Source: Bryum argenteum
Taxonomy: Eukaryota > Streptophyta > Bryopsida > Bryales > Bryaceae
Length of the DNA stretch: 64,000 nucleotides
Reading direction: 5' to 3'
Assembly: GCA_037043015.1 (NCBI GenBank)
Contig: CM073321.1
Coordinates: 2,733,001-2,797,000 of the forward strand
A program made the translations under genes and the position numbers. The notes beneath the pieces were generated by a model. It saw only the letters and a program-made list of their open reading frames with translations. It had not been told where the DNA came from and did no database searches. Below are positions 26,950 through 61,627 of the stretch, in pieces. Numbering within the stretch: the stretch's first letter is position 1; every line of letters starts with the position of its first letter.

Positions 26950-28233
26950 ATGATGTCAAACCAAATACCCGCTCTTGATTATAATCCTTCCATGTCCTAT
27001 CGATCTTCCTCAACTCCTCAACTATTTGGTCACCCTTGGCGACGGATAAAATGCAGGTCAATATGGTAGTATTGCTCAGCCATATGATTCAGTCGACTCT
27101 TCAAGACCTCATTATCTCGTTGAACATCTAGCAAATCAACTTCAAGGTGTGTTGCAGGCGAGCCTAATACTTCGTTGAAATCTGGATTATTGAATGCGAA
27201 GGAGTCAAGGACACTTCCTATGACCAAACCGTTTGGACTAGTCGATGTATTGGGTCGTGTTGACAATGAAGAAGCCCCCTTCCCCTTTGGCATTGCCCCC
27301 TCAAGCTCCATGATACGTCGTTGATGGGATGAAATCTTGTCGCTAGCTCTTTGCATGTCCTCTTTCAGCCGCTGATTTTCTTCCTTCAAGCGTTGATTTT
27401 CTTCCATCAATTGTCGAATCTGGCCTTCTCTTGGATCAAAATGCTCCATATCGACGGACAAATCTAATGGTGGAATTTCATCCGGCACGCCCCTAGCCAG
27501 AACAACCTCGACTTCTTGGAGCTCAATGTTTCTACCAACTGCATGAACCATCTTTACATTTACTATGTTGGAAAGTAGCTGCACCGGAACTGGTTGTCTT
27601 ACTTTGACCAATATAGCCATGGGCACAGGTTCTAATAATAGAGTTAGCCTCTTCCGCTTATTCCTTTCGATCGTTTTGCGTCGAGGTAAAACTATCACGT
27701 GGGAGCCATCAGAGTCGGAATTAGGCGGAGAGTTAGACATAAGGTTATTAGGGTCTAATTCCGTTGGTTTGTCTGCGAAGAGAAACCACCCAGGATCCTC
27801 TACCGCCCACGTTCCAAAGCCAGGGAAACCATTTTGTACTCGTGGTGCTCGTGCCTTGCGTTCTAAACCCTTCACAGTAGACCAATCGAACCTCTTCTTC
27901 AAAATGATCTCTACATAAACGCCGCGCACTAGAAATAACCCGACCTAGTTCTTGTTTGTTAGCTTCGTACTATAAAGGAGTTGGTAAATTTGAAGACATT
28001 GGGATAGGAACTCCAGGTTGGTGCAGTAGCGCAAATTGGCCTTGTTGCTTCTCAAGTGTAAACCATGGCGTTTGGACTGGAAGGATTTGTCGATGTGGCA
28101 CCACTCAATGTATTGCTTTACATGGTCAAAATCTCATGGGTCAGCTACATCTTCCGAGCCTCTGAATGCCAATTTTGACGTATTATTTAACACATGAAGA
28201 CGGGCCCGCTACTATTTTCCTTGTCGCACTCAT
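26950..28233 (-). pseudogene. WC-RH-ANL family gene, copy A
   Basis: The N-terminal domain (about 28190-27890) has Q-Y-I-E-W-C-H-I, R-H-G-L-H, N-K-A-N-L, then C-x8-C and V-Y-V-E-I-I-L-K-K-R-F-D-W. All invariant residues shared with copies B, C and D are kept at the same spacing. The family start (M-S-A-T-R-K-I-V) is at 28233. A frameshift follows near 28170, and TGA (28134) and TAG (27945) lie in frame. From 27929 the frame is open for 299 residues: a linker, then a coiled coil with repeated E-E-N-Q-R-L-K at about residues 175-215, and a second coiled coil near the end. A 1-bp shift at 27031 leads to about 25 more residues ending at 26953. The domain could bind zinc (inference). A TATA box lies at 28412-28424. 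Confidence 0.6.
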
Positions 28234-28409
28234 TCTTTGTCTTTTTCTCCTTTGCAGATCGCACCCGGTGTCGCCATCGTTGTAAAAAAAATTTTAAAAA
28301 ACCTCCTCCCAATGTGCTCAAACGCCCTTCCCCAATCCTGAATCCAACCATCACAACGAGAAGTGAATCTTAGGAGCTAGGGTGGGTTCCAAATGGGGAG
28401 CCCGCCCCT

Positions 28410-28424
28410 TATATAGTGGTTGGC
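28410..28424 (-). promoter_or_regulatory. TATA box of copy A
   Basis: On the minus strand CCACTATATAAGGGG lies about 180 bp upstream of the family start codon. No GACCG array is present here, unlike copies B-D. Confidence 0.5.
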
Positions 28425-28489
28425 CCTCCCACCAACCCTAACACCGAGCCGGGTCGGGTTCCCGAGCCGGAGCGGGTAACTGGGCCGAG

Positions 28490-28680
28490 CCTAGGCAGGA
28501 GAGGAGATGCAGAGGACGGGGGAGGGCGGGCAGAGAGTAGGGGAGGGGAGGGCAAGGGGTAAGGGGTAGGGTAGGGAAGGAAGGGGGCGGGGAAGGAAGG
28601 GGGCGGGGAAGGAAGGGGGCGGGTGAGGGGAGGAAGGAGGCGGGGGAGGGGGGGGGCCAGGGGAGGGAGTTGCTGGGTTT
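28490..28680 (+). repeat. G-rich low-complexity tract
   Basis: GGGGAGGG and AAGGGGGCGGGGAAGG units (three near-identical copies at about 28575-28625), followed by T-rich sequence. Confidence 0.85.
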
Positions 28681-29033
28681 TTTTCCTTTTTTTTTATCCT
28701 TTTTTTTACTTTTTTTTCAATTTTTTAAATATTTTTTTTCGTAGTATTTACAAATCGATTTATACATAGGTTGAGTGGTATTTTGCAAGGTATCTATATG
28801 AGCGGTTGGACGAGTGAGGAGGGGTGGGAATAAGTAAATATGTGCACCCAAATCAAAACAATGCAATTAAATATGTCATACTAAGATGTAGAAACGCATG
28901 GAATAAGCGAAGTTGCTGCGTATATTATATGTATGTGCATAATTGGAAGTACATATAGTATTGTAATTATCCATGCAATCCTTCTACATATAATAGGCAC
29001 ACACTAACTTTGGAGACCACTAAACTAAATAGC
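28681..29033. other. AT-rich intergenic stretch
   Basis: Starts with T homopolymers; otherwise no recognisable feature. Confidence 0.4.
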
Positions 29034-29430
29034 TTAATCACGGAAACAACACATGGGCATGGTCCAACTAAATGAATACTTTTCCAAGGCCTCAATAGCA
29101 TCCGACACGGTCAACCTTTTGGACACATCCGGGTCGTGGAGGCCTTCTAATTTGTAGCTGAGATACTCGTGATTGTGGGCGCAGTGTTGGCGGTGTGGCA
29201 TAAAGTACTTCATATTGTACTCTTCTTGCCAAATGTGTTGTGCTAACCACCCGATGGAAAATGCATCGGCTGCCTTGGAATATATGTGTTTGCATTTCAT
29301 AACCTCAAGGGAATTGTCGGAATCGCGTGGACCATACAAAAACTATAATTCCGGTGCCACCCATTTTTGCCAATGGGAGCATTTGCCTACCAGCTTCGAG
29401 ACCCTGAGTCCGTTGCATTTTTAGGCAAAA
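29034..29430 (-). pseudogene. protein kinase C-lobe, separated from its N-lobe
   Basis: The minus frame reads W-V-A-P-E-L (subdomain VIII, A-P-E), a TAG at 29343-29345, then K-A-A-D-A-F-S-I-G-W-L (subdomain IX, S-D-V-F-S-x-G type) and D-P-D-V-S-K-R-L-T-V-S-D-A-I-E-A-L (subdomain XI, the R-P-T-V-x-x-A-L type). This is the lower half of a Ser/Thr-type kinase domain. Its upper half lies at 31.9-32.8 kb on the same strand, on the other side of an inserted LTR. The A-P-E glutamate is present. Confidence 0.7.
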
Positions 29431-29453
29431 ATGCCCCGCAGATGGTTGACACC

Positions 29454-31843
29454 TGTGAACCCGCGAAACGGTTCACTCTAGCAGGAATACACTCCCCGCA
29501 AGGTTTAGCGCGTAATTGTCAGGTTTCCATGGTTTAATTAGACTTTTTAGCTCATTTCGTGGATTCACGGAATACCCGTGGTCTCAAAGGGAGTTTTGGC
29601 ACAAGCGGCTGTTGTTGCTCTAATTTATACCAAATTGGTATTTTTGATGAACGCCAATATATTAAATGGCGAGTTTTTAGGATGTTTTAGCGATTACGTA
29701 TTCCTAAGTAGGGGTCGGGTTGCCCCATTTTGCCCTTACCCTCTAGAAAACCCCTAATGTGAAGTTTGGTGCCTTTGTCTTGCCTAATTGTTTAGGAAAA
29801 AACTAGAGATTGAAGTCCGTCCAACTGGACGGATGAAATCTGCCCAACTAGACGGATGAAATCTGCCCAACTGGACGGATGAAGCTTTTTGCTTCAACCT
29901 CCCTGGATCAGCCAGGGAGGGGAGAGTGAGAGGAGGGGCCGTTAGACTAGTTTTTGTGTGTGTGTGTTTTGTGAAGCGATTTTTTGTGAGATCTGGGTTG
30001 TTGTCGCGAATTCATGAGTTCTAGCTAGTGTTGGGGTGAAGAAACCCTAGTTGTGTTCAAGTAGTGGAAAAAATTCCACGAAATTAGGTTGTGTTCTTTT
30101 GGTGGGAGTGTGCATTGGTAAGGAGAGTGTGGCTGCAGGATTGGAGGTTCCCTGGTGCAACTCAGATTCAGTCGGAGGTGTGGCCAGTAGATCTGGCTGC
30201 GAGGTTGCGGAACCAACGCCGAGGCAGCGTCACCCGAAGTGGCCAGCATCACGTCAGGGGAACCGATAGCCGACGAGGAAGGAGACGGACTTGCTGGAGT
30301 CGGAGGTGGGCGGACAGCTCCGCAACGAAGGGCCGGCCATCAATCCCAGCTCGGTAGATCCGGCTGCCGTCGGTAGTTCAGCGAGGAAGCTCGGTGAGGC
30401 GGCACGACGGAAGGGACGACACGGCAGCGGCGAGATCAACCGACACCGAGCTGCGACAAACTCGGAGGTTCAAGCAGATCGAGGGCGGGGTTTACACGGC
30501 AGCAGGCGCGTGATTGCCGCGCCAAGGAATATCGAACCGGCGAAGCCAACTCGGCAGGCGGACGTCCATTTCCAACGACACCGAGCCGCCGGAAAAGCCG
30601 CACCAGATGTCGGCCCGGCATCGCCGGGCGCGCCGAAGATTGACGGCCCAGGAGAGCTGCTCGCCGGCACCTCGGTGAGCCTCGCCAGGGCCCGGGCAGG
30701 AGCAGCATCGCGATCATGACAACAACGAGGAGGCAAGGAGTCGGAAGCCGCAGCGACGGAGGTTAACACCGTGCAGACATTCACAGCGGCAGCTTCGACG
30801 AGATCGGCGATCAGCCTGCCGGAAGACCAGCCGATTGGATCGGCCAGGAGCACGTGATTCACAGCAACTAGCACCGGCAAGGTGACCACGAGGGCCAATC
30901 AACGACGAGTGAGGAGGGCCGATTCTACTCCGGCCTCCACGGCGCAGACACGGCGACGCCGGATTTGGCATCAACGCGTGTCGGACAAAGATCGACACCG
31001 ACATCGGGACCGGTCTTCAGGCCAGTGTCGATGTTGGCCGCCATTCCTTGCAGCATTGCTCTGATCCGTGAGAGGGAGTCCTCATTTCTCTGGTCCTTCA
31101 ATTCTTGCTCTTTTCCTCATCTTGTTGGACTCTTCAGTAACTTCTAAAGTGCTAGATAACTCAATTAGTAAAAATGGTAATTTACATTGCCAACAAAAAG
31201 GATTTGCAATTGTATGTGTGGTGATTGTGATGCTTAGATAGTGGGGTTTTGTATGAATGAGTGAATGTTTTGTGTCTTTGCTTAAATTGAAGATTTGACT
31301 TGACTAGTAAATTGCTTAGTGGTGTGGGTTTGTGTAATCGCACTGCTGTGGTGGTTTTGGGAGTGTTGAATTTGGCCTACGTGAAGGGAATAGCGCGGAA
31401 GCGCTGCCCGAATTTCACTAGGTTCTTGTTGTTCAAAGTTTTGTTCATTTGCTGAATTTAGGGCTTAATTTGGAAGTATTGGGTCAAGCGCGGAAGCGCT
31501 GCCCAATTTTTTCCTAGGAAACCCTAGTATCTCATTTAAGTGTATCTTGCATTGTAGAAATGAGTTATGAGCATGTGTATGGGTTTTGATTGCCTTGGAA
31601 CCAAGAAATGGGGGTTTACAATGGAATCTACCATTTTTGTGAGCTTAGAAAGTGTGCTGTAGTAGTATAGTTTGATGTATTTAGGGGGCTTTTGCTTGAG
31701 TTTAGGTCCTATTTGACCCCATAGTTGAGCCTAAAGCCCTAGTGGCTCAAGGAATGCAATTGTAGCTCCCTAGGCTCAATTTTGATGGGTTTTGGAACTT
31801 GAGTCACTCATGGAATTGCAAGTTATAGGGAGGATTGAGGTTA
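29454..31843 (-). mobile_element. LTR-A copy, minus strand, 5' end truncated
   Basis: The 3' end (TTCACA on the minus strand) is at 29454. Inside are the family hallmarks: GCGCGGAAGCGCTGCCC twice (31393-31409 and 31482-31504), paired TTCATCCGTC-type segments near 29830-29890, and a GC-rich core at about 30120-31070. Similarity to the solo LTR at 15663 ends near 31843, so about 150-180 bp of the LTR start are missing, and no target duplication can be shown. It separates the two halves of a kinase domain. Confidence 0.75.
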
Positions 31844-31899
31844 CTTGTGTGTTTGGACCTTTTGTTGAGATTTGAAGGAGCATCGCATGTTTGCATGAG

Positions 31900-32811
31900 A
31901 ATTTGGAGAATTCCATTGCTTGGAAGGAACTAGTAACACATCACCACTTGGCCCATGTGTGCCCAATTACCTTGCATGAGGAAGTTGGTGTCAGAGCCAA
32001 GTGCGTTGTTCATCCAACTACTCTTGCTTTGCATATCCATACTTGGATTGCGCTTGTTCTACCACTCGACTTGAAATTACCCAATCGCAAAGCTCGATGT
32101 ACACCATCTCTAGTTTCCAATCATCGAAATGCAATAGAACATTGGTTGGAGTAATGTCGTTGTGTAGATAATTTTGTTCATGGCACTATTCCACAATGAC
32201 AATCAAAGACAATGCCAAGTCAAGTCGTCGTTTACAAAATGTTACAACCCAACGTAGTTGTATATCGGATAGCCATGAGTTGAGATCTTTTGGAATGTTG
32301 TTGTATTCCAAGTGCTTTGGGATTTTCCGATTGATATGGATGTCAAAATCTTTGTAGCTACCTCCGTTCCACCATAGCGAAAATCCATCCATTGTTCTAG
32401 GATGCAAGTACGATAGTCTGATGTTTCCCCGGTGCTTCACTAGACATCAACCCGCCTCATTAACGATTGCCATGCGCTTCTCCCTCTCGTTGTTCACATT
32501 TGTCAATTCTGTGCGCACGAATGGAATCCAACTAGGAATATGTTGAAGTTCTGTAAGCACCACCTTAGTCATCTTTCCATATCCACCTTGGAATCTTGCA
32601 TACACTGCCATGGTATAGATATCACGGTAACGGTTGATTCTAGCCACTTGAAAGTTCCACTGTTGTTATGAGACATAACAACATCTTAGGCTCTTAATTT
32701 CCGTGTCTCCTTGGCAATTTCCCTTGTTTCCTCAAGACGGTCAAGGGGGGTTTCCAAGTCTTGATTTCCATGTTGCATACTCGAACTTTGGCTCCCTTCA
32801 CCCTCCATTTT
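31900..32811 (-). pseudogene. protein kinase N-lobe and catalytic loop
   Basis: From ATG 32811 (M-E-G-E-G-S-Q-S-S-S) an acidic start leads to a TAA after R-K-L-R-A. Then come F-Q-G-G-Y-G-K-M-T-K-V (glycine loop), E-R-E-K-R-M-A-I-V-N-E-A (alpha-C-like), a TGA (32447), K-H-R-G-N-I-R-L and W-W-N-G-G-S-Y-K-D-F (hinge), a TAG (32186), and Y-L-H-N-D-I-T-P-T-N-V-L-L. The catalytic loop is H-N-D instead of H-R-D, and C-D-W-V stands where D-F-G is normal. Stops then break the activation segment. Even without the stops, the changed HRD and DFG suggest a weak or inactive kinase. A TATA-like CTATAAATG lies at 32938-32946. Confidence 0.65.
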
Positions 32812-32937
32812 GAATCTGAGAAAAAAAGCAAAAACTCCTCCCTTGTGCTGAAAACATCCCGCCAAGTCCCACACTAAATCGATGAAGAAGTAGTGCTTGG
32901 CAACTAGCGGAGTGAGGTGAATAATGAAATAACTTGG

Positions 32938-32946
32938 CATTTATAG
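32938..32946 (-). promoter_or_regulatory. TATA-like element upstream of the kinase pseudogene
   Basis: Minus strand CTATAAATG, about 130 bp upstream of the ATG and next to the C-rich tract. Confidence 0.4.
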
Positions 32947-32974
32947 GAGAGAGGAGTGTGGGAAATGGAGGGTG

Positions 32975-33525
32975 GGCCCTCTCCTGCTCTCTTTCCCCTC
33001 CCCCCTCCTTCCCCCGCCCTCTGCCCCCCCTTTCCCCCGCCCCCATGCCCCCTCTTTCCCCCGTCCCCTTGCCCTCCCCTTTCCCCCTGCCCTATATCTC
33101 CCCTTCCCCCCCGCCCCATACACCCCCTTTCCCCTGCCCCATGCCCCCCCCCTTTTCCCCCGCCCCGTGTCCCCCCTTTCCCCCGCCGCTCCTTTTCCTC
33201 GCCCCCACTTTCTCCCGCCCCCCTACTCCGCCTTAGTTGCCCCCCCTTTCCCCCTCCCCCCTGCGTCCCCATTCCCCATGCCACATGTCCCCCCGCCTCC
33301 TACCCCCTTTCCCCCCATGCCCCTACCCCCCCTTTCCCCCTTTCCCCCGGCCCCCTACCTCCCCTTTCTCCTGCCCCCTGGCCCCCCTTTCCCCCGCTCC
33401 CATGCGCCCTTCCCCCGCCCCCCCTTGCGGTAACCTGCCTCCCCTCACCCGCCCTCGACCCCCCTCACCCACCCTCGACCCCCCTCACCCGCCCCTAACC
33501 CCTTTCACCCGCCATGTCGTAAGTC
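32975..33525 (+). repeat. C-rich low-complexity tract
   Basis: Degenerate CCCCCTTTCCCCCGCCCC units, changing to CCCTCACCCGCCCTCGACC units at 33430-33510. The last part is similar to the inverse of the G-rich tract at 23630-23700. Confidence 0.9.
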
Positions 33526-33719
33526 CTAGGTGGCACGTACGTGGCGGCCAAGTAGCTTGGATTTTACCTAAACTTTTGCCACGTCCTCGTTTTTTCACCT
33601 AAACTAAAAGTCAACAAAGGTTTGACCATATCGGGTGAACAAGAGCTCAATTGGGCGGGCAAGGCGGACAAGCGGGCGAGCAGCGTGCCTGCCCGGTTTG
33701 ACAACCTTGGTTCTGGGAG

Positions 33720-34075: not shown

Positions 34076-34086
34076 TACGCTCACTA

Positions 34087-34127
34087 TGAAAATCACATCT
34101 CTTTCCAAAGAATGCCCGAACACCATG
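34087..34127 (+). repeat. gypsy LTR, left fragment
   Basis: Matches the LTR start at 20487 (AATCACATCTCT versus TGTCACATCCCT, then GAACACC(A/G)TG). It is split by the solo LTR, and the rest is at 36167. Confidence 0.65.
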
Positions 34128-38499: not shown

Positions 38500-40020
38500 G
38501 GCGTGGGCGTGCAAAGCCGCCTTGGTAGGGAGCTAAGGATAGGGGCCACTCCTTTTAACCCTAACCCTATTCAAATCTATTCCGACAACCACTTTGAATT
38601 TCTTCAATCGATCGATCGACCGAGCGACATGTCGACATGGGTCAACATCCCGGTCGGCGTCTTGCGCTCCTCCTTTCCTCTTACACTCACCAACACTCCC
38701 TCATCTCTCGTCTTCCCTCTTCTTCTTCTTCCTCTTGCCTGCTTTTAAGAATTTCTATTTTTAGGTACATGACATTGTACCCACAACCTAAACCAAGGCA
38801 TTAATGCACATGCCGATTTTGTCAGTGGAATGTCGGGAAGATCTACTTTTCATAGAAAGGAATATTTTATTCAAATGATCTTATGCGCTTGGAGACACAT
38901 GAAAAATAGAAATTATTATGAATAACCCCTTATTGTTCATATGAATCTTAACTATTTATAAATTACTTGGAATTCTTTAGGGTACAATGTCATGCTTTGA
39001 TAGAATTTGCAATATATTCACATTGACTTATGATTATGAAAAATATTTTACTTGCTAACTATTTATGGATCTAAGTATCTAAGCAAATTTTATTTGAATC
39101 CAAATGGGTGGTTGTTTATTTGACCTCTAAAGTCTAAGGGGGGGTTTGGAGGAAAAATAAATGTCTTAAGAAATGTGAGTTTTCTAACTCTTCTGAACTT
39201 TCTCTCCAAAGACAATATAAAAACCTTAATCCTTAGATTATATTGTTATAATAGAAATCCTCATAATAGTTAATAATTCTCTTGGAATAGATTAAAGACA
39301 CCAAAACTTTTAATAGCAATATAAAATTCTCATTTCTCTTCTTAGTACTTATTTATTTGTATGGTTTCCTTAAATTTTATCTTATATGATAAAATATAAA
39401 AGGCCAATACTTATCTATGAAAAATACTACTAGTTTCCTTTTATAATAAGTTATTCAATATTATGCAAACCTTGTCATGTTTGTGATTAGAGGGTTGGTG
39501 TGAGCAATACGTGATTCCAAACTAGGTTTTGTAATGTAAACGAGGTTCCCAACCCATCTTACATGTCGGATGCTTTTTAAATCCTTTTTAAATCGGGTAC
39601 ATCTTGTCAAAATTTGGAATAGAGCACAAAATGGTTGATTGGGCCTTTATTGGTTGAGTGTTATAGTAAATATCTAATCATGTACTATATTGAAAGGCTA
39701 TTAGCATCATATAAATATATAAGTATGAGAAGTAAAAAGATACATAACATAAAACTTGCAATACAAATTCATGCAACCCAACTTCAGAAGTACATGGGTA
39801 CAAAGTAGTATGTGCTAATATCAGGGTTGTCTTATTAGACACAATTTTCGAAATGTCTGTCTGATTTGTCGTATTAGACATGTCTGTTAGACGTCCGATC
39901 GACGAAAATGTCGACTGTACCAAAAATTACATAGTAAAAAACTTGTTGAGATTTACCTTGAGGTAAAAAGCTATTTTCCTACGTGGCGTAAGGCTGATAA
40001 TGACGTGGAAAATCAAAATA
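38500..40020. other. AT-rich non-coding stretch
   Basis: No gene is supported. A CAGGGTTGTCTTATTAGACA sequence starts near 39823 and has a hAT-like CAGGG end. TATTAGACA recurs nearby, but no inverted partner was found beyond the hAT gene. Confidence 0.4.
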
Positions 40021-40027
40021 CACGTCA

Positions 40028-40325
40028 CAGTGGGCGACCGCGGGTGGGTGACCTCGCTAGGCGACCGACAGTCGTACAGGGGCGAACGTCGGTCGCCTGC
40101 TGCGATCGCCGATCGCCCTGACTGCCGCGCGTAGGCGACCGGCAGTCCAGTATGGAGACCGGCGGTCGCCCTGGCAACCGCTATTAGGCGACCGCCGGTC
40201 CAGTAGTGAGCGACCGACGATTGCCCAAGGCGATCGTCGGTCGCTTATAGAGATCGGCGGTCGCCCTGGGGGTAGCGCCCATGTGGCGATCGCTGGTCGC
40301 CTTCGGCCACTGCGTGTGTGGTGAC
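40028..40325. repeat. GACCG palindromic array
   Basis: About ten units of GGCGACCG(C/A)(C/G)GGTC and GGTCGCC type in both orientations with 15-30 bp spacers. It lies 3' of the hAT gene. Confidence 0.8.
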
Positions 40326-44111: not shown

Positions 44112-44112
44112 C

Positions 44113-44124
44113 TTGGTATCGAGC
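44113..44124 (+). promoter_or_regulatory. chromovirus primer-binding site
   Basis: TTGGTATCGAGC just after the LTR resembles the TGGTATCAGAGC complement of the initiator tRNA-Met 3' end, with one base missing. Confidence 0.6.
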
Positions 44125-44160
44125 GGCTTTTAGTACCCAAGTGCAAAGTTGTGAGGAGCA

Positions 44161-48297: not shown

Positions 48298-48790
48298 GAA
48301 GCGAGTCAATGCCGGAAGACGTGAAGTGGAGTATGAGGTGGGACAAAAGGTGTTGTTGAATGTGAAGAACTTCACCATGTCCGAAGGCCTCACTCCAAAG
48401 TTCATGTCCAAGTTTGCGGGTCCGTTTCCCATTGTGGAACGGGTGTTCAAAGATGTGTATAAGTTGGAGCTACCACCCGAGATCAAAGTGCATCCAACAT
48501 TCCATGTTTCATTGTTAAAGCCATTCAAGGAGGATACCTTGTGGCCGGATCGCAAGCAAGTGATTCGGCCACCACCAGAGTTGGTTGGACAACATTTGGA
48601 ATATGAGGTAGAGGCCATCCTCAAGAGTAGGAACCTCAAAAACAAGAGCAAGGAATACCTTGTGAAGTGGCGAGGATACCACGAGAAAGAAGCAACGTGG
48701 GTGGCGGCAAAGGACATGGTGAATGCTAAGGAGGTGGTGGAGAACTTTGAGAAGAATAGGAGCTCCAACAAGAAGCAACGTAGGCATTAA
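48257..48790 (+). CDS. chromovirus integrase C-terminus with chromodomain
   Basis: After the A-run shift the frame gives [21 protein letters not shown], the G-P-F-P-I-V motif and [10 protein letters not shown] (the GPY/F module), then a chromodomain: [17 protein letters not shown] and A-K-E-V-V-E-N-F. Chromodomains tether the integration complex to methylated histone or to heterochromatin. It ends Q-R-R-H-stop at 48788-48790. Confidence 0.93.
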
Positions 48791-49576
48791 TGAGGACATC
48801 AACCTCCGTAGTGGGGGAGGATGACTTGTAGCTTGGGCGTAGATCCACAACACTTGTACTCGTTCATTGGATTTGGCAATAAAGTTTGGCTTTGGTGTGT
48901 GCAAAGAGAAGAGTATGAGATGGAGTCCTAGTCTTGTACTTGTGCTAAGTTGGTGGAAGAGGGGGAATAGAGATGTGAAACCGAGTTGGGAAGGCCGAGT
49001 AATGGGGACCAAGGCTAGGAGAAAAAGTGGATAAAACCATGAAGTCCCTTGGCCTTGGGCTTGTCCGGGCGGGGACAAGGTAATGGCGCGTGCTCATAAA
49101 AGCGCCACTCCCACAAACTAGTGCAAGCTAGTGCATGGGAGTCATGAACCCATGCCTTGAAAGAGATAGTGGGATCCGAGTTGGGCGGAACTTGGCATTA
49201 CCCCCGTGCGATCGAGTCGTGGTGTAAAAGCCATCTTGGGTTTGCAACCAAGACAACTTGGTGGAAGCATTGAGGTCCAGCCTAGTAGTCAAGGAAGAAG
49301 TGTTAGGCTAGTGGAGCCTAACTTAGAGAGCCAAGGTAAGGGCAATCCAAGAGGGTCTCAAAGTAGGTGGGTCTAGAGTAGTTTAGTTGCCTTGGAAGAA
49401 GTCCAGGGTTCTAAACGGACCACCTAGTGACGACACCTTTGAGACTTTGCCAAAGTTTGAGAGTGCATTGTGGGGGTCGCGCCCTGGTGAAACACAATGC
49501 TGCACCAATGGGGATGGCAACCCAAGAGTTGGTGTGACCGACTACAAGTATAGTCGATGAGGGCATCGACTCCATT
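48791..49576 (+). other. chromovirus 3' untranslated region
   Basis: 0.8 kb without ORF between pol and the polypurine tract, collinear with 19676-20486 of the older relative. Confidence 0.8.
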
Positions 49577-49589
49577 AGGTGGGGGTGAG
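49577..49589 (+). promoter_or_regulatory. chromovirus polypurine tract
   Basis: AGGTGGGGGTGAG directly before the 3' LTR. Confidence 0.8.
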
Positions 49590-50884
49590 TGTCGCGCACC
49601 TCTCCTTGAGGAGTGCCCGCAACACCAAGGGCCCAAGGGGGACACCGGAGTGACGCCCGGGCCTTGGGGTGCCAAGGTGAAGGGAACCTAAGTGGGCCTA
49701 GTGTGGGAGAGGACCCCGGGCGTTGGAGACGCCTCTCACCCACGGAGACTAGGAGCCACGACGGAATGGACATGAGATTATGGAAGCTCATGTTGCCACG
49801 ATTCCGGGATGCTAAGGAGCACCTCATTTGGAGGTGTGAGCTAAAAGTTATGGGAGTTGGAAGATTGTGGGACTAAAGGGAGTGCTGTCCAGGGACAGTG
49901 CTGGACTGGGAAGCTGGCCCGGGACTCCCGAATCTTCAGAGGGGCATAACTCCCTCAATACTTGTCGGAATGAGGCAAGTAAGGTGTCTATCGGCATCTA
50001 CTTGACGAGTAGATGTCGATAGAGTGGTCGCTCGTCGCGTTTGGATGCGGGACGAGGTAGATACGAGCCCTGGAAGGTTCGGGAAGTCTCCCGGGGCCTT
50101 CCAGCGGCTAAGGCATTGGGAGATTGGGTGGTCTTCCAAACCTTAGAGGTGTGAGGGTCCAGCCCTTCACCTAGGACCAGGGGCTGCCGAATCCCACAGA
50201 GTATACTATGGGGAGGGCTGGTCTCCCTCCCCACTCCCATGGTGCCTTGGTGGTGACCAAGGTGGGAGTCCCGAGTGGTGTGGCTAGTGTTGGGGCCTCA
50301 CCATGGGGACTCCCAAGCCAAGGTGAGTCCCAATGGGTGGAGCTAGTGTTGGGGCTCCACCATGGGGACTCAAAGTGCAAAATGAGGCACGGTGGGTGGA
50401 GCTAGTGTTGGGGCTTCACCACGGTGGCTCATAAGGACAAGGTGAGTCCCGGTGGGGGAGCTAGTGTTGGGGCTTCACCACGGGGACTCATATAGGCAAA
50501 ATGAGGACCATGAGTGCTACCGATGTGGGGTGGTGTCTCACCGCCGGCGTTGTGATTACTTGGTGGCCTTGGGGTCACCATGGTGGTCATGGGCGGTGGT
50601 GAGGAGACACCACCAAGTGCGGTTAGGCCGCGTGGTATGGGAGTGCCACCAAGTTGGGCCTTGGACATAAGTGGAAGTCCGCACCTAACCATTGGCTACC
50701 TACGAAGGGGTTGAGTCCCGGTTGCATGAGTAGGAGGGATTGATAACCAAGCGGTGAGCTTGGTGGTTGGTATGGGGAGCTAACTTTGTGCATGTGGGGG
50801 ATGTGCAGAGTTAGCGCTCGTGACACTTGCTACAGTTGGGAAAAAGTTGGTGTAAGCTAAGGTGAGCTAGCAAGGGTTGCGACA
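49590..50884 (+). repeat. chromovirus 3' LTR
   Basis: Direct copy of 42819-44111; ends GGGTTGCGACA before ATCTG. Confidence 0.95.
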
Positions 50885-50889
50885 ATCTG
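50885..50889 (+). repeat. target-site duplication ATCTG (right)
   Basis: Second copy of the chromovirus target duplication. Confidence 0.95.
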
Positions 50890-51880
50890 CAACTTCTTCA
50901 CAGCACCTAATATGGAGCTTGCATTGTCTGTGCATATCTGAACGATGTTTTGTGGTCCAACCTTCTCTATGTACTTTGCCATTTCATTTGCCACATAAGC
51001 GATGTCCTTTTTCTTCCCTGTAGTATCCACTGATCCTCGAAACACCTCTCCCACTAGGCAAACGAGCATCATGTTAATGAGTGATCTACTTGTGACATCC
51101 GACCACCCATCTGAGCATATTGTTCCTCCGTACTTCTCGATAGAAAGTTTTGTTCGATTCTCTACCGACCTTTGCACAGCTGCCTTCTTCGCATCGAGCA
51201 TTGTAGTCCTAATAGCATGATACAAGGGTGGTTGATATCCACCAATACCGGCCTTTGCTGTCTCTTGAATGACACTTATGAATGCTGGATGTCGTACAAC
51301 ATTGAATGCAATGTTTGCCTCATAGAAAAATGAAGCCCACTTTGCATCCAAATTTTGCCTAGTGGCAAGATCAAAACTATCCTCCATACTCCTTTGCCCA
51401 TGTCGCCGTCCACTAGAGAGTGTAGAGATCCTTTGTCCATTGCTGCCATGACTCCCCTTGTTAGAGGATGGCACCTGATTAGACCTTAGGTTAGGGGATG
51501 GCACTTGTTCAGACTTGATGCAAGGGGAATCTATGTTCTCTATAGTTTCCCTTGCCACATATGGTATGCCGACATCCACTCGTGAGTCAGGAATAACATC
51601 CGCATAAGGAATGTTGTTCTTTGGAACCATCCCTCCGCAGTCACGGAATAGCTCGAGAACTCCACGGGGTAACTTCGTACACCGGGGTAATGGAGAATTC
51701 TGAGGATATCCAAAATGAGCAAATGCTCGTTGCTTTACAAAGACTGTGCTTTTCCAACAGAATAAGCACACGCGAATATTTGGCTTGTCGTTCCGTTCCG
51801 TGGATACTTGTAGCCAATCGTCCCATTTGCGAGTGTCTCTTCTATTATCTGCTACCCCTTAGATTGGGAAGAATGCTCCA
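50885..51880 (-). CDS. hAT transposase, N-terminal part
   Basis: Reading toward lower coordinates, a BED-like finger start is visible (K-W-D-D-W-L, V-C-L-F-C-W-K-S-T). A linker follows, then the DUF659-type catalytic start: Y-G-G-T-I-C-S-D-G-W-S (first D), R-G-S-V-D-T-T-G and Q-I-C-T-D-N-A (second D). The frame runs into the chromovirus inside the duplicated ATCTG target and resumes in frame at 42818. The first ATG in frame is 51771, inside the finger. The frame is open upstream to about 51867, where a TAA occurs, so the true start is probably on an upstream exon or was lost. hAT transposases excise and reinsert DNA; DUF659 proteins are often domesticated. Confidence 0.85.
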
Positions 51881-52513: not shown

Positions 52514-53263
52514 TCATTCACCAAGAATATTTAAATTGAAGAAAATCAAATTTCTACAACTGCTAAAAAAACGCCCCCCTTCTGTACAAACTTGGCTTGG
52601 CCCCCCTTCTGTACAAACTTGGCTTGGCCCCCCTTCATCCAAATGTGCTTCATCTTCCTCCATCGTTTGGTTCGGCTCCCCTTCATCCACTTCTCGCCTT
52701 TCGGTCCCTTCTTCTTCCGAATCTGTCCAAACTATGTCCTCATCGGGGATTCCTCCTTTGTAACCCCTAGGCGTTGTAAGACCTTCTCGTGGGTTGGCCG
52801 CTGGATAAGGAGCTCGCGGAATATGGGGTTCTGTTGGCTTAATTGTTTGAGGGGATTTTTTTAACGTTCTCCAATCCACCTCCCTCTACAAAATTATCTC
52901 CGCGTACACCATTTGTGCTATGTTGTACGAAACCTCGTTGCTCACCACATGCACACCGGCGTAGAGGAACTTCCACACTTCAATGCATCGTTGCACAAAT
53001 TCATCGTGATTGCAATAGTGCAAATTTGCGCTATTCAAGCGGCAATGAAACTCGTGACGATAGTGTGGAAACAAATGGCCGATTTGGCACCAAGCAATGT
53101 ACCACTTGCAAGTCTTAAGGGTCCACGGTCTCTCTACTTGCGCCCACCCCGGAAAAGCATGTTGCGTGGGATCTATGAGAATCTTGTGAAATCTCCTTTG
53201 CTTCTTTCCTTTCCTCTTGCGGTCCTTGTCTCTCGCTATCTTTCGCTCCTGGCTAGGCGTCAT
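52514..53263 (-). pseudogene. WC-RH-ANL family gene, copy B
   Basis: ATG 53263 opens M-T-P-S-Q-E-R-K-I-A with a basic start (K-R-K-G-K-K-Q-R-R). The domain follows: H-A-F-P-G-W, A-W-C-Q-I, R-H-E-F-H, N-S-A-N-L, C-x8-C and A-Q-M-V-Y-A-E-I-I-L. A single TAG (52886-52888) stands where other copies have G, E or K; the frame then continues R-E-V-D-W and N-P-R-E-G-L-T, then D-S-E-E-E. A 30-bp tandem duplication (52574-52632) repeats P-S-Q-V-C-T-E-G-G. The C-terminal coiled coil of the other copies is missing, as the frame ends at 52514. It is the least damaged N-terminal domain after copy D. Confidence 0.65.
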
Positions 53264-53476: not shown

Positions 53477-53543
53477 AAGGCCCGACACGTGGAGGTGAAA
53501 AATGGCGACAGCCGGTGTCCGCGCGCGTATTTGTAACCCTGGT

Positions 53544-53845
53544 GCTAGGGCGACCGTCAATCCAGCCGATGGGCGAGCGTCGGTCGCTGGGGCGAGCGTC
53601 GGTCGCTGGGGCGACCGCCGATCCAGCGGATGGGAGACCGCCGATCCACTTGGTGGGCGACCTTCAGTCAGAGGGCGCGACCTCCAAATGAGAGGGCGCG
53701 ACGTATGTCTGGGGGCGCGACCTCTGGATCGCGCGACCGCCGATGCAGTGGACGGGCAAACGTCGGTCGCTGAGGCGACCGCCGATCCAGCTGGTGGGCG
53801 AACGTAGGTCAGTAGGCGACCGCCGGTCCAGCTCATGGGCAAGGA
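53544..53845. repeat. GACCG palindromic array upstream of copy B
   Basis: Units such as GGGCGACCGCCGATCCAGC and GGGCGAGCGTCGGTCGCTG in alternating orientation, mean period about 25-30 bp. An AT-rich AAATACGCG spot separates it from the conserved block. Confidence 0.85.
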
Positions 53846-53879
53846 CTTACCTTCCTCCCAGCGTATTTGTCAAAATTAT

Positions 53880-55330: not shown

Positions 55331-55502
55331 AAGGGGGGAGGAGGTGGTTTTATTATTTTCTCTAACCGTATTAAATATATTGAATCATGAAAGAAGCCAC
55401 ATGGAACTTGGATTTACATGGAAGGAAATACTTGGTGTTAATTTGATTCAACCCTGGCATGGTATAGGATACTTGGTGTTAACTTGATTCAAAACCTCCA
55501 GA

Positions 55503-55935
55503 TCACGCGACCGCCAATACAGCGGATGGGCGAACGTCGGTCGCTAGGGCGACCGCCGATCCAGTCGATGGGCGAACGACGGTGACAGGTCGACCGGCGG
55601 TCTACGCGATGGGCAAGGACCCAAGGAGAAAGTGTCCCCGAGCCTCCGTGCACCCCCTCCTGATGGGGCGACGGTCGATCCAGCCGATGGACGAACGACG
55701 GTCGCTAGGGCGACCGACGATCCAGCCGATGGGCGAACGACGCTGACAAGGCGACCGGCGGTCTACGTGATGGGCACGGACCCAAGGAGAAAGTGTCCGC
55801 GAGCCTCCGCGCAACCCTCCTGATGGGGCAACGGCCGATACAGCGGATGGGCAAACGTCGGTCGCTAAGGCGTCCGCCGATCCAGCCGATGGGCGAACGA
55901 CATTGAGAGGGCGACTGGCGGTCTACGTGATGGGC
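55503..55935. repeat. GACCG palindromic array, no adjacent gene
   Basis: Same units as at 53.6 kb, with a ~130-bp higher-order repeat: the segment from GGCGGTCTACG(T/C)GATGGGC to GAGCCTCCG is present at 55582-55650, 55752-55812 and partly at 55917. No family gene copy was found next to it. Confidence 0.85.
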
Positions 55936-55940
55936 GCGAA

Positions 55941-56664: not shown

Positions 56665-58235
56665 TCAATGGTACCAGCTCCGACATTTCTCCTTTGTCTT
56701 ATTTGCAATACATAGATCTTCGATCCTTGCATTTAAGAACCTCTCCTCTTCTGCGAGCACAAGTAGCTTTTTGACCAACTCCTCAGTTGTTTCATTGCGC
56801 TGTGAACTTTGACCCTCTTCTGCAATATCCACGGTTCCATCTATTCTATTGAGTACTAACTTTTCCTTGTTCTCCTTCAATCTTCTTGATGCTAGGTTCA
56901 CCCTTTCGATCTCAGCTCTCAAGGCATCGCATGCCGAAATGAATACCTTTAGCTCCTTCTTAGAATGACCTTGGTCCTTGGCTCCTTCAACCATAATATC
57001 CTTCTCGCGACCCCAATCATTGACCATGAACCATTCGTCGACGTGATTATATCTCCTTTGCACATCTTCGAAATGTTTCATCTGCTTTATGACCTCTTTC
57101 TCATAATCGACCTGATCCGATGCATCGAGAGTTGGAAAAACATTCGTCGCCACGTCTTGGATCTTCTTTTTTGCATCCTTGATTACATGTATGTCATGTT
57201 GGAGTTCAACATACTTTGCCCGTTCGTATGACAAAGCATGAAAGAGATATTCATAATCCTCATAAGCCCTCTTCATCTCCTTCATCCACGAATCATCGAT
57301 TTCATTCCGGCGTTTCGCTTTGAAGACTACTTGAACTTCCTTCTCCAACTCTGCTTCTTCGTTTCCTTCTCTTTCTGGTTGTTCAGTCGTTTCCATTGGA
57401 TATTCTTGAGTCCCATCCTCTACGCTAACATTTGTTTGAGGAGAGGCGCTCATAGCCGGCCGAACTATAACTTCGGGTGGACCCAAAGTACAAGCACCAA
57501 ACATTCCTTCAATGTCCATGTATTCAATGACATCCGCTTCTCCTTCTGTTCGTAGGTCCTCGACGTGCTTCACAGGTGCATCAATCACATCCAAATCTCG
57601 CACGCTTGTTTCACCCACATGAAATTGTTCTACGCCACCAATAGAACCTTCTACAAGAGGAGTATGATGCTCCCTCTCATTTACCTCTTCTTCATCAGAA
57701 TTAGGATTTTCCCAAACAAAGCATCCCCATCTTTCCGATGTCTTGCTGCCGTAAGTCCTTCTCGTGGGTTTTCTGTCAATGGGGCTCTTGGAATGTCTTG
57801 CTTGGTTGGAAGGAAGAATTGAGGCGATTTTTTCATTGAGCTCCAATCCACCACTTTCTCCAATATTACCTCTGCATACACCATTTGAGCAATATGATAC
57901 GAAACCTCGTTCTTGGTGACATTCTTGCCTTAATAAAAGAACCTTCACACTTCAATACATCGTTGTACAAATTCGTCATGCTTACAATAGTGAAGATTTG
58001 CAGCATTTACTTTCATGTGCGTCTCATGTCGAAAGTGTGGAAACAACTTGCTGATGTGGCACCAGGCGATGTATTTCTTCACTGTTTTCTGTCTTTAAAC
58101 ACCCTCTTTGGTCTCCCACCCCGGAAAAGCGCGTTGAGTGGCATCTTGGAGAATACGGTGATTCCTCTTGTGTTTATTTCCTCTCCTACTGCGTCGTTTG
58201 CCGAGTACTATTTTACGTTCCGCAATTGTAGTCAT
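56665..58235 (-). pseudogene. WC-RH-ANL family gene, copy C
   Basis: ATG 58235 opens M-T-T-I-A-E-R-K-I-V with a basic start. The domain reads A-F-P-G-W, A-W-C-H-I, R-H-E-T-H, N-A-A-N-L, C-x8-C and Q-M-V-Y-A-E-V-I-L-E-K-V-V-D-W. Stops TAA (58095), TGA (57945) and TAA (57931) lie inside it. After N-P-R-E-G-L-T a 1-2 bp shift near 57725 moves to a long open frame to 56665: acidic linker, then extended coiled coil (residues about 210-420) with K-R-R-N-E-I-D-D-S-W-M-K-E-M and E-E-L-V-K-K-L-L-V-L-A-E-E-E-R. About 1.57 kb, some 520 codons. The long intact C-terminus next to a broken N-terminus could mean that a shorter product is still made, but that is speculation. Confidence 0.65.
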
Positions 58236-58322
58236 TGTTACCTCCGATCACGGAAATGCGGCTATGATGTGATGTTAGATACAAAATACCAAAATTAGTG
58301 CAATCCACGTTGGCCGACCAAT

Positions 58323-58366
58323 CGAGCAAGCAAGTGGCAACTTTGAGTCGACACCAGACAATGCGC
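58323..58366 (-). promoter_or_regulatory. conserved promoter block of copy C
   Basis: Minus strand GCGCATTGTCTGGTGTCGAC, then TCAAAGTTGCCACTTGCTTG, then CTCG. About 90 bp upstream of the ATG; shared with copies B and D. Confidence 0.78.
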
Positions 58367-58435
58367 AACACCACGGCACGTGGACTGAAAAGTGACGACT
58401 ACGGCCAATAACAATTGTATTTAACCTCCAGTGGT

Positions 58436-58622
58436 AGGGCGACCGGCGGTGTCACGGCGACATCGTTAGAGCGACCGGCGGTGTCACGGCGACATCGTTA
58501 GAGCGACCGCCGGTCCAGCTGCAGCAGACCTCCGGGGCGACCGGCGGTGCAGCTTCAGAAGAGTATCGATCCAGCCTCAGCGGAGCGCTTTGGGGCGACC
58601 GGCACTCTGCAGGGGCGACATC
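58436..58622. repeat. GACCG array upstream of copy C
   Basis: Units GGGCGACCGGCGGTGTCACG (twice in tandem with GCGACATCGTTAGA) and GCGACCGCCGGTCCAGCTG. A TATA-like TTAAATACA (minus strand, 58418-58426) lies between the array and the conserved block. Confidence 0.85.
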
Positions 58623-58626
58623 GCAA

Positions 58627-59940
58627 GAGCTCCCGCTCTTGTTCTTGGATCCTCTTTATGCAATATTCAAATATTGAATTAACCGATTCAAGCATCTCCC
58701 CCATTCCCTCCTTCAATCCCCCTCATCCCCCCTCATTCCCTCTCATTCCCACTCCGTTCTTCCTATTTCTCATTCCCAATTGAAAATGATTCTCATGGTC
58801 ATGGGCATTTTGCCAAGAGCTGTGACCATGATACATGAAAAATGTATTTTATGCTCATTGGATACTCTTGTGGTGTAATATGGATTAGATCGATACAGGT
58901 TTAATCACAATTTACAAAATTATAATTTTCAACATTCTCAAAATTCTCAACATAAAATTCTCATCAAATATTGGTTCCAAAAGTACCCTGAGTAATGGGT
59001 TGATTAGAATGTCCGCAAATCATTAGTCTTCTTGACTTCAAATATTTACCTTCATATGGTGGTCACTCATTTTTTCTCCAAACATATAATATGTCATGAT
59101 ATATCACCTTTTAATTTGGTAAGCAACTATTTCTCTCAGTGCTTACTAGGGTATATGCACTAATCCCATTCACTTAATTGTATTTCAAGGCGTTATTATT
59201 TGACTTGCCAAAATATTCAAAATCCTCCCCCCTCTCAATTTAACCAATGTTATAATGTTATGAGGCAATAAACTCATTGCAAGGATAATCTATTAGCATA
59301 TATATACTCGGATATTGTATATGGAGATCTTATAATTTATTAAAGGGTCCACTGATATAAAAAGAAACTAGAAATTGTTCTTGAATGTGATGTTAGAATA
59401 TGAGGTGCAGTTTTGGTGCAAAAATGGTATCTTATCTAGATGCTAGAAATTGACTACCTTGGATTACATTCTAAGATTGTAGCTATTAAATCGTTAGATG
59501 TATTAAAGTGTTTTCATGCATTGAAGAGGCTGATGCTCTATAAATGAATTCACATTTTATCACTTATTATAAATGGTTAGGCACAATATGACTTGTTAAA
59601 ATATACATCATACAAAATAATATATACCATTCATGCCTACGAAGACGACGAGGAACTCTCACCCCATCCTTCCTCCCATTCACTATTATCCATTTAGACA
59701 TCTCTTGTCCATTTCTTATGAATCGAATGATCATAAAATGGGAATTATGGGACCGACGATCCGAAATTCCTACCCTATGCGTACCTTCTTAATTCTTAAA
59801 CTAATACATTATAAACTATAGGGCTCTCTTATCCCTCCCCCATCCAATATTCATCCTCATGTCATGATTCTCATCCTCGTAGGAGCTGCTATGAAACCTC
59901 ATGCCCTCGCATTCAACATAAAGAGGTGAATTCCCGATTG
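58627..59940. other. AT-rich intergenic region between divergent copies C and D
   Basis: No gene. A short C-rich run (58695-58760) and several GAATTCTCATTCCCA/CTCATTCCC-type words are present. Confidence 0.45.
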
Positions 59941-59945
59941 CAAAT

Positions 59946-60245
59946 AGGGCGACCGCCGATTCAGCGGATGGGCAAACGTCGGTCGCTAGGGCGATCGGCG
60001 GTCCAGCTCATGGGCGAACGTCGGTCGCTCGGGCGATCGGCGGTCCAGCCAATGAGCGAACGTCGGTCAAAGGGCGAGCGCCAGTATAGCTTATGGGCGA
60101 ACGTCGGTCACTCATGGACGAACATCGGTCGCTGGGGCGATCGGCGGTACAGATAGGGCGATAGCTGGACCGGCGGGCGACCGGCAGTGCAGATTTTGTA
60201 GACCGCCGGTCGCCTTATTACTGTGCTTAAGAACGCGACTGGCAG
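59946..60245. repeat. GACCG array upstream of copy D
   Basis: Units GGGCGATCGGCGGTCCAGC and GGGCGAACGTCGGTCGCT alternate; about ten units, ending about 110 bp before the ATG of copy D. Confidence 0.87.
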
Positions 60246-60278
60246 TCGATTTTCACACTTTGCGAGCCCCTCTTTTTC

Positions 60279-60323
60279 GCGCATTGACTAGTATCGACTT
60301 CAGTGTTGCTACTTGCTTGCTCG
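60279..60323 (+). promoter_or_regulatory. conserved promoter block of copy D
   Basis: GCGCATTGACTAGTATCGAC to GCTACTTGCTTGCTCG, 34 bp upstream of ATG 60357; matches the copy B and C blocks on the coding strand. Confidence 0.78.
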
Positions 60324-60356
60324 TAGAGGGACTTTCCTTTTCTACGAATTTTTTTT

Positions 60357-61043
60357 ATGGAGGCACTACCCGTTGTAGCAGGTACATCCATGGTGCACCA
60401 TGAACGAGGTCGGATTGAGAAGAAGCGCATAGACATCTTGAAGAATCCAAAGATATTAGCGTTTAGAGGATGGGAGGAAGAGACGGGGCCGTGGTCTTTT
60501 GCCATATGTGAGAAATATGAGCAGTGGTGCCACATCAACAAGCTCTTTCCTCTACATCGGCACAATATTCATCGGCACCAGAATGAAGCAAACCTCCGAG
60601 AGTGCCATCATTACCTATTTAAAGCAAGATGCATATATGCTTGGCATTTGATATACGGTAACAATCATAATTTTAAATATGAGGTTCCCTACTTTTTGGC
60701 AAAAATGGCATATGCGGAAATGATTCTCGGGAAGCAAGTGGATTGGTTGACACATCCACGTTTGCCTATACAAGAGAAGACCGAACGAATAGAGATTGGA
60801 GAGACATCAAAGACTATTGAAGGAGATGGAATTGGAGCTATACCTATGAGTCCTAAGGCCAACGGAGAATTTTACACAACGGGGTCTTCTTCCGAATCCT
60901 CGCAGGATGAACACACACACGAATACGAGCTTTGTGAACTGAGTGAACCAACTGGTCCCCCAATAAACTGGATGGAGGGGATTTCCTATGAGGCAAATCC
61001 ACTCCAAACAGTGGGTGGAAGATTATCCAAATACATGCAATAG
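60357..61043 (+). CDS. WC-RH-ANL family gene, copy D, N-terminal part
   Basis: ATG 60357 gives an open frame of 228 codons and the only N-terminal domain here without stops. Order: basic start (E-K-K-R-I-D), K-I-L-A-F-R-G-W-E-E-E, Y-E-Q-W-C-H-I-N-K-L-F-P, R-H-N-I-H, N-E-A-N-L, C-x8-C, A-K-M-A-Y-A-E-M-I-L-G-K-Q-V-D-W, then a Ser/Glu-rich acidic linker (S-S-S-E-S-S-Q-D-E-H). The C, H and H residues could form a zinc site. I recognise no known domain. The frame stops at 61041-61043, and the coiled-coil part follows in another frame after about 20 bp, so either a short intron or a frameshift lies near 61040. Upstream it has the block and array shared with copies B and C. Confidence 0.7.
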   Translation: MEALPVVAGTSMVHHERGRIEKKRIDILKNPKILAFRGWEEETGPWSFAICEKYEQWCHINKLFPLHRHNIHRHQNEANLRECHHYLFKARCIYAWHLIYGNNHNFKYEVPYFLAKMAYAEMILGKQVDWLTHPRLPIQEKTERIEIGETSKTIEGDGIGAIPMSPKANGEFYTTGSSSESSQDEHTHEYELCELSEPTGPPINWMEGISYEANPLQTVGGRLSKYMQ

Positions 61044-61627
61044 AAGTAATGTAATATAAAAAGGAATTGGAAGCCCTCAAAAAACCATACAATTTACAAG
61101 AAGACTCTCGGGAGACTTTGGAAAAAGTTCTAGACTGCATAGCTTATATGGAGACCATACTTGTGCTACGAAAAGAGGCTCGTGAGAAGTTTTTTGAGAA
61201 GAAACATTCAAACAACCTTTCCATAGAAGACTACGTAGAGTTGTGGACAGTGAAACATACTTTCCTGGAAGGGGTCTTAGCTGAGAGGAGGGATAGGTTG
61301 ACGGATATTGAAGAATCTATTGCTCTAGAGGTAGACAAAGAGATGCTACGCATTCGTGATTTGGCATTTGCGGGTAAGTATGGCAAGACTCCAGAGGAAG
61401 TTGACAAATTAAAGAGGCTGGTGAAATGGAGTGAAGACCAGAATGTAAAACTCGCGAAGCAACTACGTGTAGCTGAGGAGGATGCTCGATTCGAGGACGC
61501 ATGGGCAGAGTGGGCTCATCGTAAAAATAACGCAAAAATTGACATCAACATAAACGCAATCGACGTTGATTTGGAACCGCAACGATCACTTTTTTCGAAG
61601 GGCAAGGAAAAAGTTGAAGATTCTTAA
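61044..61627 (+). CDS. copy D, coiled-coil C-terminal part
   Basis: The frame K-K-E-L-E-A-L-K-K-P runs as a predicted long helix with heptad-like leucines and high E/K content (L-E-K-V-L-D-C-I-A-Y-M-E-T-I-L, K-L-K-R-L-V-K-W-S-E-D-Q-N-V-K-L) and ends with a basic K-G-K-E-K-V-E-D-S-stop. Position and composition match the coiled-coil half of copies A and C. The first ATG in this frame is 61067. Confidence 0.6.

Follow-up and report, generated by a model that had tools for sequence, protein, structure and literature searches.

The genome of Bryum argenteum (Bryopsida; GenBank assembly GCA_037043015.1) was analyzed around a stretch of 64,000 nucleotides on contig CM073321.1 (positions 2,733,001 to 2,797,000; hereafter the window), in which four genes, A to D, share a domain with the core W-C-x9-R-H-x2-H-x3-N-x-A-N-L-x2-C-x8-C, referred to here as the WC domain. 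Genes B, C and D are paralogues, all carried by a single copy of a transposon of about 19.9 kb that belongs to the hAT superfamily (family 1), and copy A is part of an element of another, hAT-like family (family 2; positions 23427-33709 of the window). The initial annotation had treated the four as an undescribed gene family, which they are not in the sense of host genes, as all of them lie inside elements of these two transposon families. Judged from the anatomy of the elements and from analogy with described systems, the WC proteins are probably accessory proteins of giant hAT transposons, i.e., element-encoded regulators that would bind arrays of a family-specific motif. More tentatively, they may belong to a complete self-regulation and anti-silencing system that would have arisen independently of the VANCs of VANDAL elements, in which a new helical DNA-binding domain in four versions, one of them fused to a RING ligase, would read, together with a kinase, family-specific arrays, near-palindromic in family 1, upstream of each gene and at the two element ends.

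Twenty loci of 10 kb around copies of gene D, taken from the window's own genome (258.8 Mb, 25 contigs), were compared with two of them, and two copies were then read with more flanking sequence. The similarity among the 20 loci mostly extended far past the gene, and the two complete copies (C7, 19,914 bp, and C9, 19,818 bp) had sharp common ends. The terminal inverted repeat (TIR) of family 1 is CAGGGTTGTCTT, with the short inverted repeat CAGGGTTGTCTTNNTAGACAC as expected of hAT elements; the ends of the complete copies read CAGGGTTGTCTTATTAGACAC and, inverted, CAGGGTTGTCTTGCTAGACAC, and the copies are flanked by 8-bp target-site duplications (TSDs), GCTGCAGC and GTGGCGTG (ends and duplications compared by eye). 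Ten further end pairs, paired by hand, comprised eight with an exact 8-bp TSD, one with 7/8 matching positions and one without; across the 13 copies read, the duplication was exact in 11, 7/8 in one and absent in one. These copies measured 2.3-35 kb, several being near 18-22 kb and others 7-12 kb. A derivative of 2,291 bp (L057, C1:11335846-11338236, C1 being the contig of the window) retained an exact 8-bp TSD, end segments of approximately 346 and 375 bp, and 8 motifs. The presence of the same ends and duplications in shorter copies indicates that the ends have been mobilised.

At least 150 genome matches were obtained with the first 228 residues of D, its stop-free part (the best 150 of 1250 candidates were scored), and about the best half of them were 76-89% identical and often open across the matched part. 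For the 61-nt left end the best 40 of 263 candidate places were scored, and for the right end the best 40 of 256. The description as a four-copy family was therefore correct within the window and far too low for the genome. An ordinary host gene family caught among repeats would agree with the existence of open reading frames (ORFs) of 440-735 aa, but a host gene family was ruled out by the TIRs, the TSDs and the copy number, and with a gene order common to the copies compared we give it practically no credence. Apart from this, 109 of the 150 scored D matches were located on C1, which accounts for 44.1 of the 258.8 Mb, and of the scored element ends C1 has 22 of 40 on the left side and 12 of 40 on the right (counted by eye); such an enrichment could mark a non-recombining (e.g., sex) chromosome.

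The gene products of family 1 are a DUF659/hAT transposase, four WC-domain proteins (B, C, D and an A-type protein bearing a putative RING finger) and a protein kinase (Table 1). Both DUF659 and Dimer_Tnp_hAT were recognized in the transposase by Pfam, and by its TSDs, ends and transposase family 1 is a member of the hAT superfamily. The transposase frame is not open throughout in either complete copy; at three places elsewhere, open frames of 1018-1073 aa were found with the matched part free of stops. Of 27 transposase places outside C1, 22 had a scored D place no more than 20 kb away, the distance being 8.9-9.8 kb for 16 of these; random placement gave a mean of 0.28 and a maximum of 3, in a control that used guessed lengths for C2 and C11 and left out the C1 rows. 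The transposase and D thus travel together. The kinase exceeded the Pkinase cut-off of 31.7 bits in family 1 (P0006, 43.3 bits) as well as in family 2 (L058, 37.3 bits), its HND, DWG and APE motifs are present by eye, its matches to known kinases among PDB sequences were weak (best 6.9e-5), and it has two database relatives, 85% and 66% identical. In the A-type protein, zf-RING families of Pfam matched at 2.6e-6 to 1e-4, just below their cut-offs, and several database relatives bear the precomputed entries PF13639/PF14634.

When tandem repeats and, without bias, 9-mers were counted in the two complete elements, both counts led to the same GC-rich near-palindrome, which was scored as GAYCGNCGGTC or GACCGNCGRTC. 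The C7 copy has 57 such sites (shuffle mean 0.02), the C9 copy 33 (shuffle mean 0.06) and the window copy 17. No occurrence was found in window positions 1-39821, in the retrotransposon inserted into the window copy, in approximately 26 kb of flanking sequence of L032, L033, L035 and L036 (by our own subtraction), or in the family-2 locus L058. None of the 57 sites lies inside the genes of the C7 copy, which fill 11.0 of its 19.9 kb, and among the 20 D loci the number of sites was 2-17 per 10 kb, with none inside D in all 20. In both complete copies each gene has an array on its 5' side, and each subterminal region has one too, the C9 copy having the same clusters as the C7 copy. The 14-mer core GGCGACCGCCGGTC occurs 1232 times in the genome (reversed control, 0), and for 85 of the first 100 listed places, all on C1, a scored D gene or element end is no more than 25 kb away (rotation mean 17.2).

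Motif arrays that are non-coding and specific to a family are also a trait of the VANC system of VANDAL transposons. VANDALs are Mutator-like, and in this respect they differ from family 1 with its hAT-type transposase. According to passages of PMC5735166, VANC21 of Arabidopsis binds, in vivo and in vitro, a 9-base motif in tandem, non-coding, family-specific arrays that expand and contract from one copy to the next, VANC6 having other motifs; VANC proteins cause loss of DNA methylation and derepression (passages of PMC5735166 and PMC10398659). The family-1 motif is likewise short, tandem and non-coding, rare in other transposable elements, variable in number between copies and specific to its family, and it is this agreement in array anatomy with the VANC system (PMC5735166, in part) from which we infer that the WC proteins bind the arrays. 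The WC domain, the RING finger and the kinase are not mentioned in the passages on VANC21 (PMC5735166).

In the proposed mechanism, the WC proteins would dimerise through their coiled coils and bind the motif arrays; three of the four appear to bear coiled coils, and a near-palindromic motif would suit a dimer. They could then act like VANC of VANDAL or TnpA of En/Spm, by activating the genes of the element or preventing their silencing, and may also dress the element ends for transposition. The RING paralogue might ubiquitylate host silencing factors or partners and so remove or mark them, its action being modulated by the kinase, so that both would act on host or partner proteins. Duplication within the element would have given rise to the short (B), coiled-coil (C, D) and RING (A-type) versions.

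The arrays could instead be binding sites of the hAT transposase, with the WC proteins serving, e.g., as scaffolds or ubiquitin-ligase adaptors in transposition complexes. The Ac transposase binds subterminal repeats, and in family 1 the motif clusters in both subterminal regions, where the transposase is the sole protein with a known role, and is retained there in the 2.3-kb derivative. However, clusters are also found 5' of B, C and D, between the A-type and kinase genes and in the middle of the element, which exceeds the need of end recognition, and no BED finger was reported by Pfam in the pieces scanned; we regard this explanation as rather unlikely.

Several observations weigh against the WC proteins as readers of the arrays. 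The transposase could be what binds them, the binding by WC proteins being argued from analogy, and the predicted WC model had no match to a known DNA-binding fold. VANC21 sites are arrayed in one orientation (PMC5735166, in the passages concerned), in contrast to the near-palindromic family-1 motif. No recognised gene stands beside the C7 cluster at 7952-8343 (window about 55551-55763), and 5' of its transposase the window copy retains no site. The best rotation in the proximity control of the 14-mer reached 83 of 100, and 5 of the 17 motif clusters among these first 100 places had neither a scored D gene nor an end nearby. Furthermore, one paired-end candidate (C1:26.02-26.04 Mb) lacked a TSD, the family-2 copy L058 had only 4 sites of the family-2 motif CCCCTNACC in 5.3 kb of element, and the ratios of nonsynonymous to synonymous substitution (dN/dS) for whole D (0.84) and its coiled coil (1.18) suggest that copies mostly decay.

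The WC domain itself was located by a six-frame scan at exactly four places in the window (D at 60525, plus strand; B at 53092, C at 58064 and A at 28103, minus strand), and tblastn with relatives landed on the same four; the motif and its common spacing, as first described, were confirmed at all of them (spacing by eye). The looser pattern W-C-x9-[RK]-[HR] gave three extra chance places (6160, 49627 and 42856) without the remainder of the motif; at 6160 (plus strand) there is a frame that, by eye, resembles a Copia-type polyprotein. The reading frames of A, B, C and D are all broken in the window. Copy A, annotated at first as a single frame at 28233-26950, is a gene at about 28313-26099 (minus strand) with stops and frameshifts, which continues beyond the end initially given to it and there includes a RING finger as well as a C-terminal region that is conserved. 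The coiled coils ascribed to A, C and D were seen by eye, structure prediction covering them in the A-type protein only, with long helices at residues 265-319 and 398-455.

Among 25 aligned members, the invariant residues included G38, W39, W46, W57, C58, A78, N79, E121 and L124; H59 and C83 were each conserved in 24 members, C92 in 22, H69 in 21 and H72 in 18. Zinc binding is possible, since C58, H59 and C83 are nearly invariant, although H72 is not. Four database relatives were retrieved with a first profile and at least 49 with a second (the best 7997 candidates were scored), all "hypothetical" or unnamed; 19 of the 49 are 661-928 aa long, the others being shorter and some without the WC part. 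As initially claimed, no named family covers the domain: Pfam gave sub-threshold chance matches only on the WC region, NCBIfam and PHROGs gave no match to the domain, and the PDB searched by sequence (A1 profile) gave two thymidine kinases only (E 0.65-0.76). The AlphaFold model of the WC protein (228 aa) had a mean predicted local distance difference test score (pLDDT) of 69.6, with the mainly helical residues 41-130 at 90-96; it had no Foldseek match in the PDB at E ≤ 10 and none with VIA-align, where only two chains were compared. For the A-type model (787 aa, mean pLDDT 60.2, C-terminal domain at 631-720 with pLDDT 81-90), the fold search returned one chance match only (E 8.4). Absence of fold matches is no proof that the predicted WC fold is new.

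The earlier suggestion that the domain was under selection holds in part: in 14 stop-free D copies, dN/dS was 0.58 for the WC domain against 1.18 for the coiled coil, with 0.80 for the N-terminus and 0.74 for the acidic linker, ratios that blend selection with later neutral decay. This also applies to the values over all copies compared, which were 0.84 for D (25 copies), 0.44 for the A-type gene (10), 0.59 for the kinase (8), 0.69 for C (8) and 0.36 for B (3).

Copy A belongs to family 2, a 10,283-bp element in the window whose left end CAAGGTTGTTA lies at 23427 and whose right end, CAAGGTTGTCA inverted, was placed at 33709 by comparison of L058 with the window (TIR consensus CAAGGTTGTYA). 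Its flanks, GTTCTTGG and GTTCTGGG, match at 7/8 positions, a duplication that rests on the window copy as the sole one read at both ends. By its ends and duplication size the family is classed as hAT-like, and the N-terminal part of the family-1 transposase had no tblastn match within 23427-33709. In L058 (C3), an open 735-aa A-type relative is located beside a kinase gene on the same strand; the family-2 kinase is 33% identical to that of family 1, and the N-terminal part of the kinase present in L058 has no match in the window. Between the two kinase parts of the window, 2.6 kb without similarity to L058 (29372-31996) split the gene and may be a further insertion. The best 150 of 579 genome candidates for the RING part of copy A were scored, and by our own tally 67 were 58-100% identical (family 2) and 83 were 38-47% identical (taken as the family-1 paralogue).

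The motif CCCCTNACC occurs 35 times in the family-2 copy of the window against none in 29.5 kb outside both elements, with two occurrences in window positions 39822-64000 and one each in the C7 and C9 copies. Family 2 is the weaker case for a motif array, because CCCCTNACC was chosen from the same window, after it had been seen, and is C-rich. C-rich minisatellites of this family were observed at 24.9-25.7 and 28.5-28.7 kb, and the GC skew is -0.42 in 24-28 kb.

The pair of RING-WC and kinase genes is common to both families, though the identity between their A-type RING parts is only about 40%. As modules, the kinase and RING domains are common in hosts, and the accessory genes might be captured cargo that benefits the host, as in Starships or ToxhAT. 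Against such an origin stand the retention of the pair in two families this divergent, the motif 5' of every family-1 gene in the two complete copies, which fits functions of the element, and the search for a host gene with a WC domain, of which none was identified among the genome matches of D and of the RING part of copy A; we consider host cargo improbable.

The left boundary and TIR of the family-1 copy in the window are as in the C7 and C9 copies (Table 1). Its transposase gene is interrupted by a Ty3/gypsy long terminal repeat (LTR) retrotransposon, which is young and not part of the transposon's system; an origin of the WC genes as a retrotransposon Gag was ruled out, this element being a later insertion. 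Homology to the complete copies ends at 62352, inside the A-type gene, and an A-type RING part is found just past the window (C1:2797520-2797978, i.e., window coordinates 64520-64978), which makes a second insertion of about 2 kb after 62352 likely.

Table 1. Coordinates of the elements, genes and motif clusters in the window and in the complete C7 copy of family 1 (percentages as reported for each comparison)
Feature	Sequence	Position	Strand	Remarks
Family-2 hAT-like element	Window	23427-33709	+	10,283 bp; TIRs CAAGGTTGTTA / CAAGGTTGTCA
Family-2 motif CCCCTNACC, 35 sites	Window	23740-33500		Clusters at 23.7-24.4, 24.9-25.7, 28.6 and 33.4-33.5 kb
Copy A, family-2 A-type gene	Window	26099-28313	-	WC, coiled coil, RING, C-terminal domain; broken
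Family-2 kinase gene, 3' end and following sequence	Window	28678-29372	-	86% nt identity to L058 2729-3392
Family-2 kinase domain part	Window	31996-32712	-	89% nt identity to L058 3389-4098; 2.6 kb from 3' part
Family-1 giant hAT element	Window	39822 to beyond 64000	+	Later interruptions; runs on past the window
Left TIR CAGGGTTGTCTTATTAGACAC	Window	39822-39842	+	
Motif cluster, left subterminal	Window	40157-40262		4 sites; positions converted
hAT transposase, 3' part	Window	41118-42818	-	DUF659 end, hAT dimerisation domain; Pfam Dimer_Tnp_hAT 3e-5, above cut-off
Ty3/gypsy LTR retrotransposon in transposase gene	Window	42819-50884	+	LTRs 99.4% identical over 1296 bp; 5-bp TSD ATCTG
hAT transposase, 5' part	Window	50885-51858	-	Pfam DUF659 1e-24; separated by LTR element
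Gene B (WC domain, short tail)	Window	52514-53263	-	One in-frame stop; 93.5% to L034 B frame over 200 aa
Motif cluster 5' of gene B	Window	53613-53828		4 sites
Motif cluster between B and C	Window	55551-55763		4 sites; without a recognised gene
Gene C (WC domain, coiled coil)	Window	56665-58235	-	Broken; 83.5-89% to L011 C frame
Motif site 5' of gene C	Window	58505-58515		Single site
Motif cluster 5' of gene D	Window	59751-60211		4 sites
Gene D (WC domain, coiled coil)	Window	60357-61627	+	Broken; 82-86% to L026 D frame
Family-1 A-type gene, 3' end	Window	62063-62350	-	WC, coiled coil, RING, C-terminal domain; 88.5% to P0005
Motif cluster, left subterminal	C7 copy	263-536		
hAT transposase	C7 copy	~4150-930	-	
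Motif cluster 5' of transposase	C7 copy	4278-4409		
Gene B	C7 copy	5998-5264	-	
Motif cluster 5' of gene B	C7 copy	6259-6464		
Gene C	C7 copy	10651-9095	-	
Motif cluster 5' of gene C	C7 copy	10876-10917		
Motif cluster 5' of gene D	C7 copy	12326-12577		
Gene D	C7 copy	~12740-14066	+	
A-type WC/coiled-coil/RING gene	C7 copy	~16957-14400	-	
Motif cluster between divergent A-type and kinase genes	C7 copy	16996-17307		
Protein kinase	C7 copy	17470-19058	+	
Motif cluster, right subterminal	C7 copy	19506-19705		

hAT elements are usually small, one-gene transposons. Family 1 resembles the superfamily (Ac, Tol2) in its 8-bp TSD, its short TIRs starting CA(G/A)GG and a transposase with DUF659 and the hAT dimerisation domain, but differs from it in having about 19.9 kb and six genes, including a kinase gene and four paralogues that share a new domain, one of them for a RING protein; Tol1 and Tol2 measure 4.4 and 4.7 kb (PMC10175614, in part). 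ToxhAT of fungal wheat pathogens (14 kb) is also a large element with an extra gene and is hAT by name; in contrast to family 1 it carries the effector gene ToxA as cargo. En/Spm, whose TnpA has subterminal motifs, and CACTA elements of Chondrus crispus are similar in having accessory proteins beside the transposase, which is of a different superfamily. The enlarged CACTA elements of C. crispus reach 16-20 kb with 4-5 ORFs (passages of PMC6431247), and "hAT" does not occur in the main text of that paper. Teratorn and other giant eukaryotic transposons are comparable in being large, multi-gene and, as a virus-transposon fusion of that kind would be, present in many copies; however, no viral family rose above the Pfam cut-off in the ORFs scanned (not every small ORF), none of 29 pattern matches in IMG/VR viral contigs was a relative, and viral structure models (BFVD) gave one chance match only (E 7.2), which makes such a fusion very improbable. 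In the literature searched, judged by titles and the beginnings of abstracts, no hAT element with such accessory genes was found, which is not proof of absence. As a member of the hAT superfamily, family 1 is of an already known kind, and no earlier description of its size, its set of genes, its WC domain or its system of arrays was found in the sources searched.

A hAT element of about 20 kb that is present in high copy number and encodes a kinase, a RING protein and several paralogues with a new, expanded domain family shows how far a cut-and-paste element can grow. The family of WC proteins merits its own database entry, as none of its at least 49 relatives is named beyond "hypothetical protein". 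If the WC proteins read the arrays, they would be a second example, independent of the first, of a transposon that counters silencing in a sequence-specific way, and with the array sites already mapped, the question of WC binding is directly testable.

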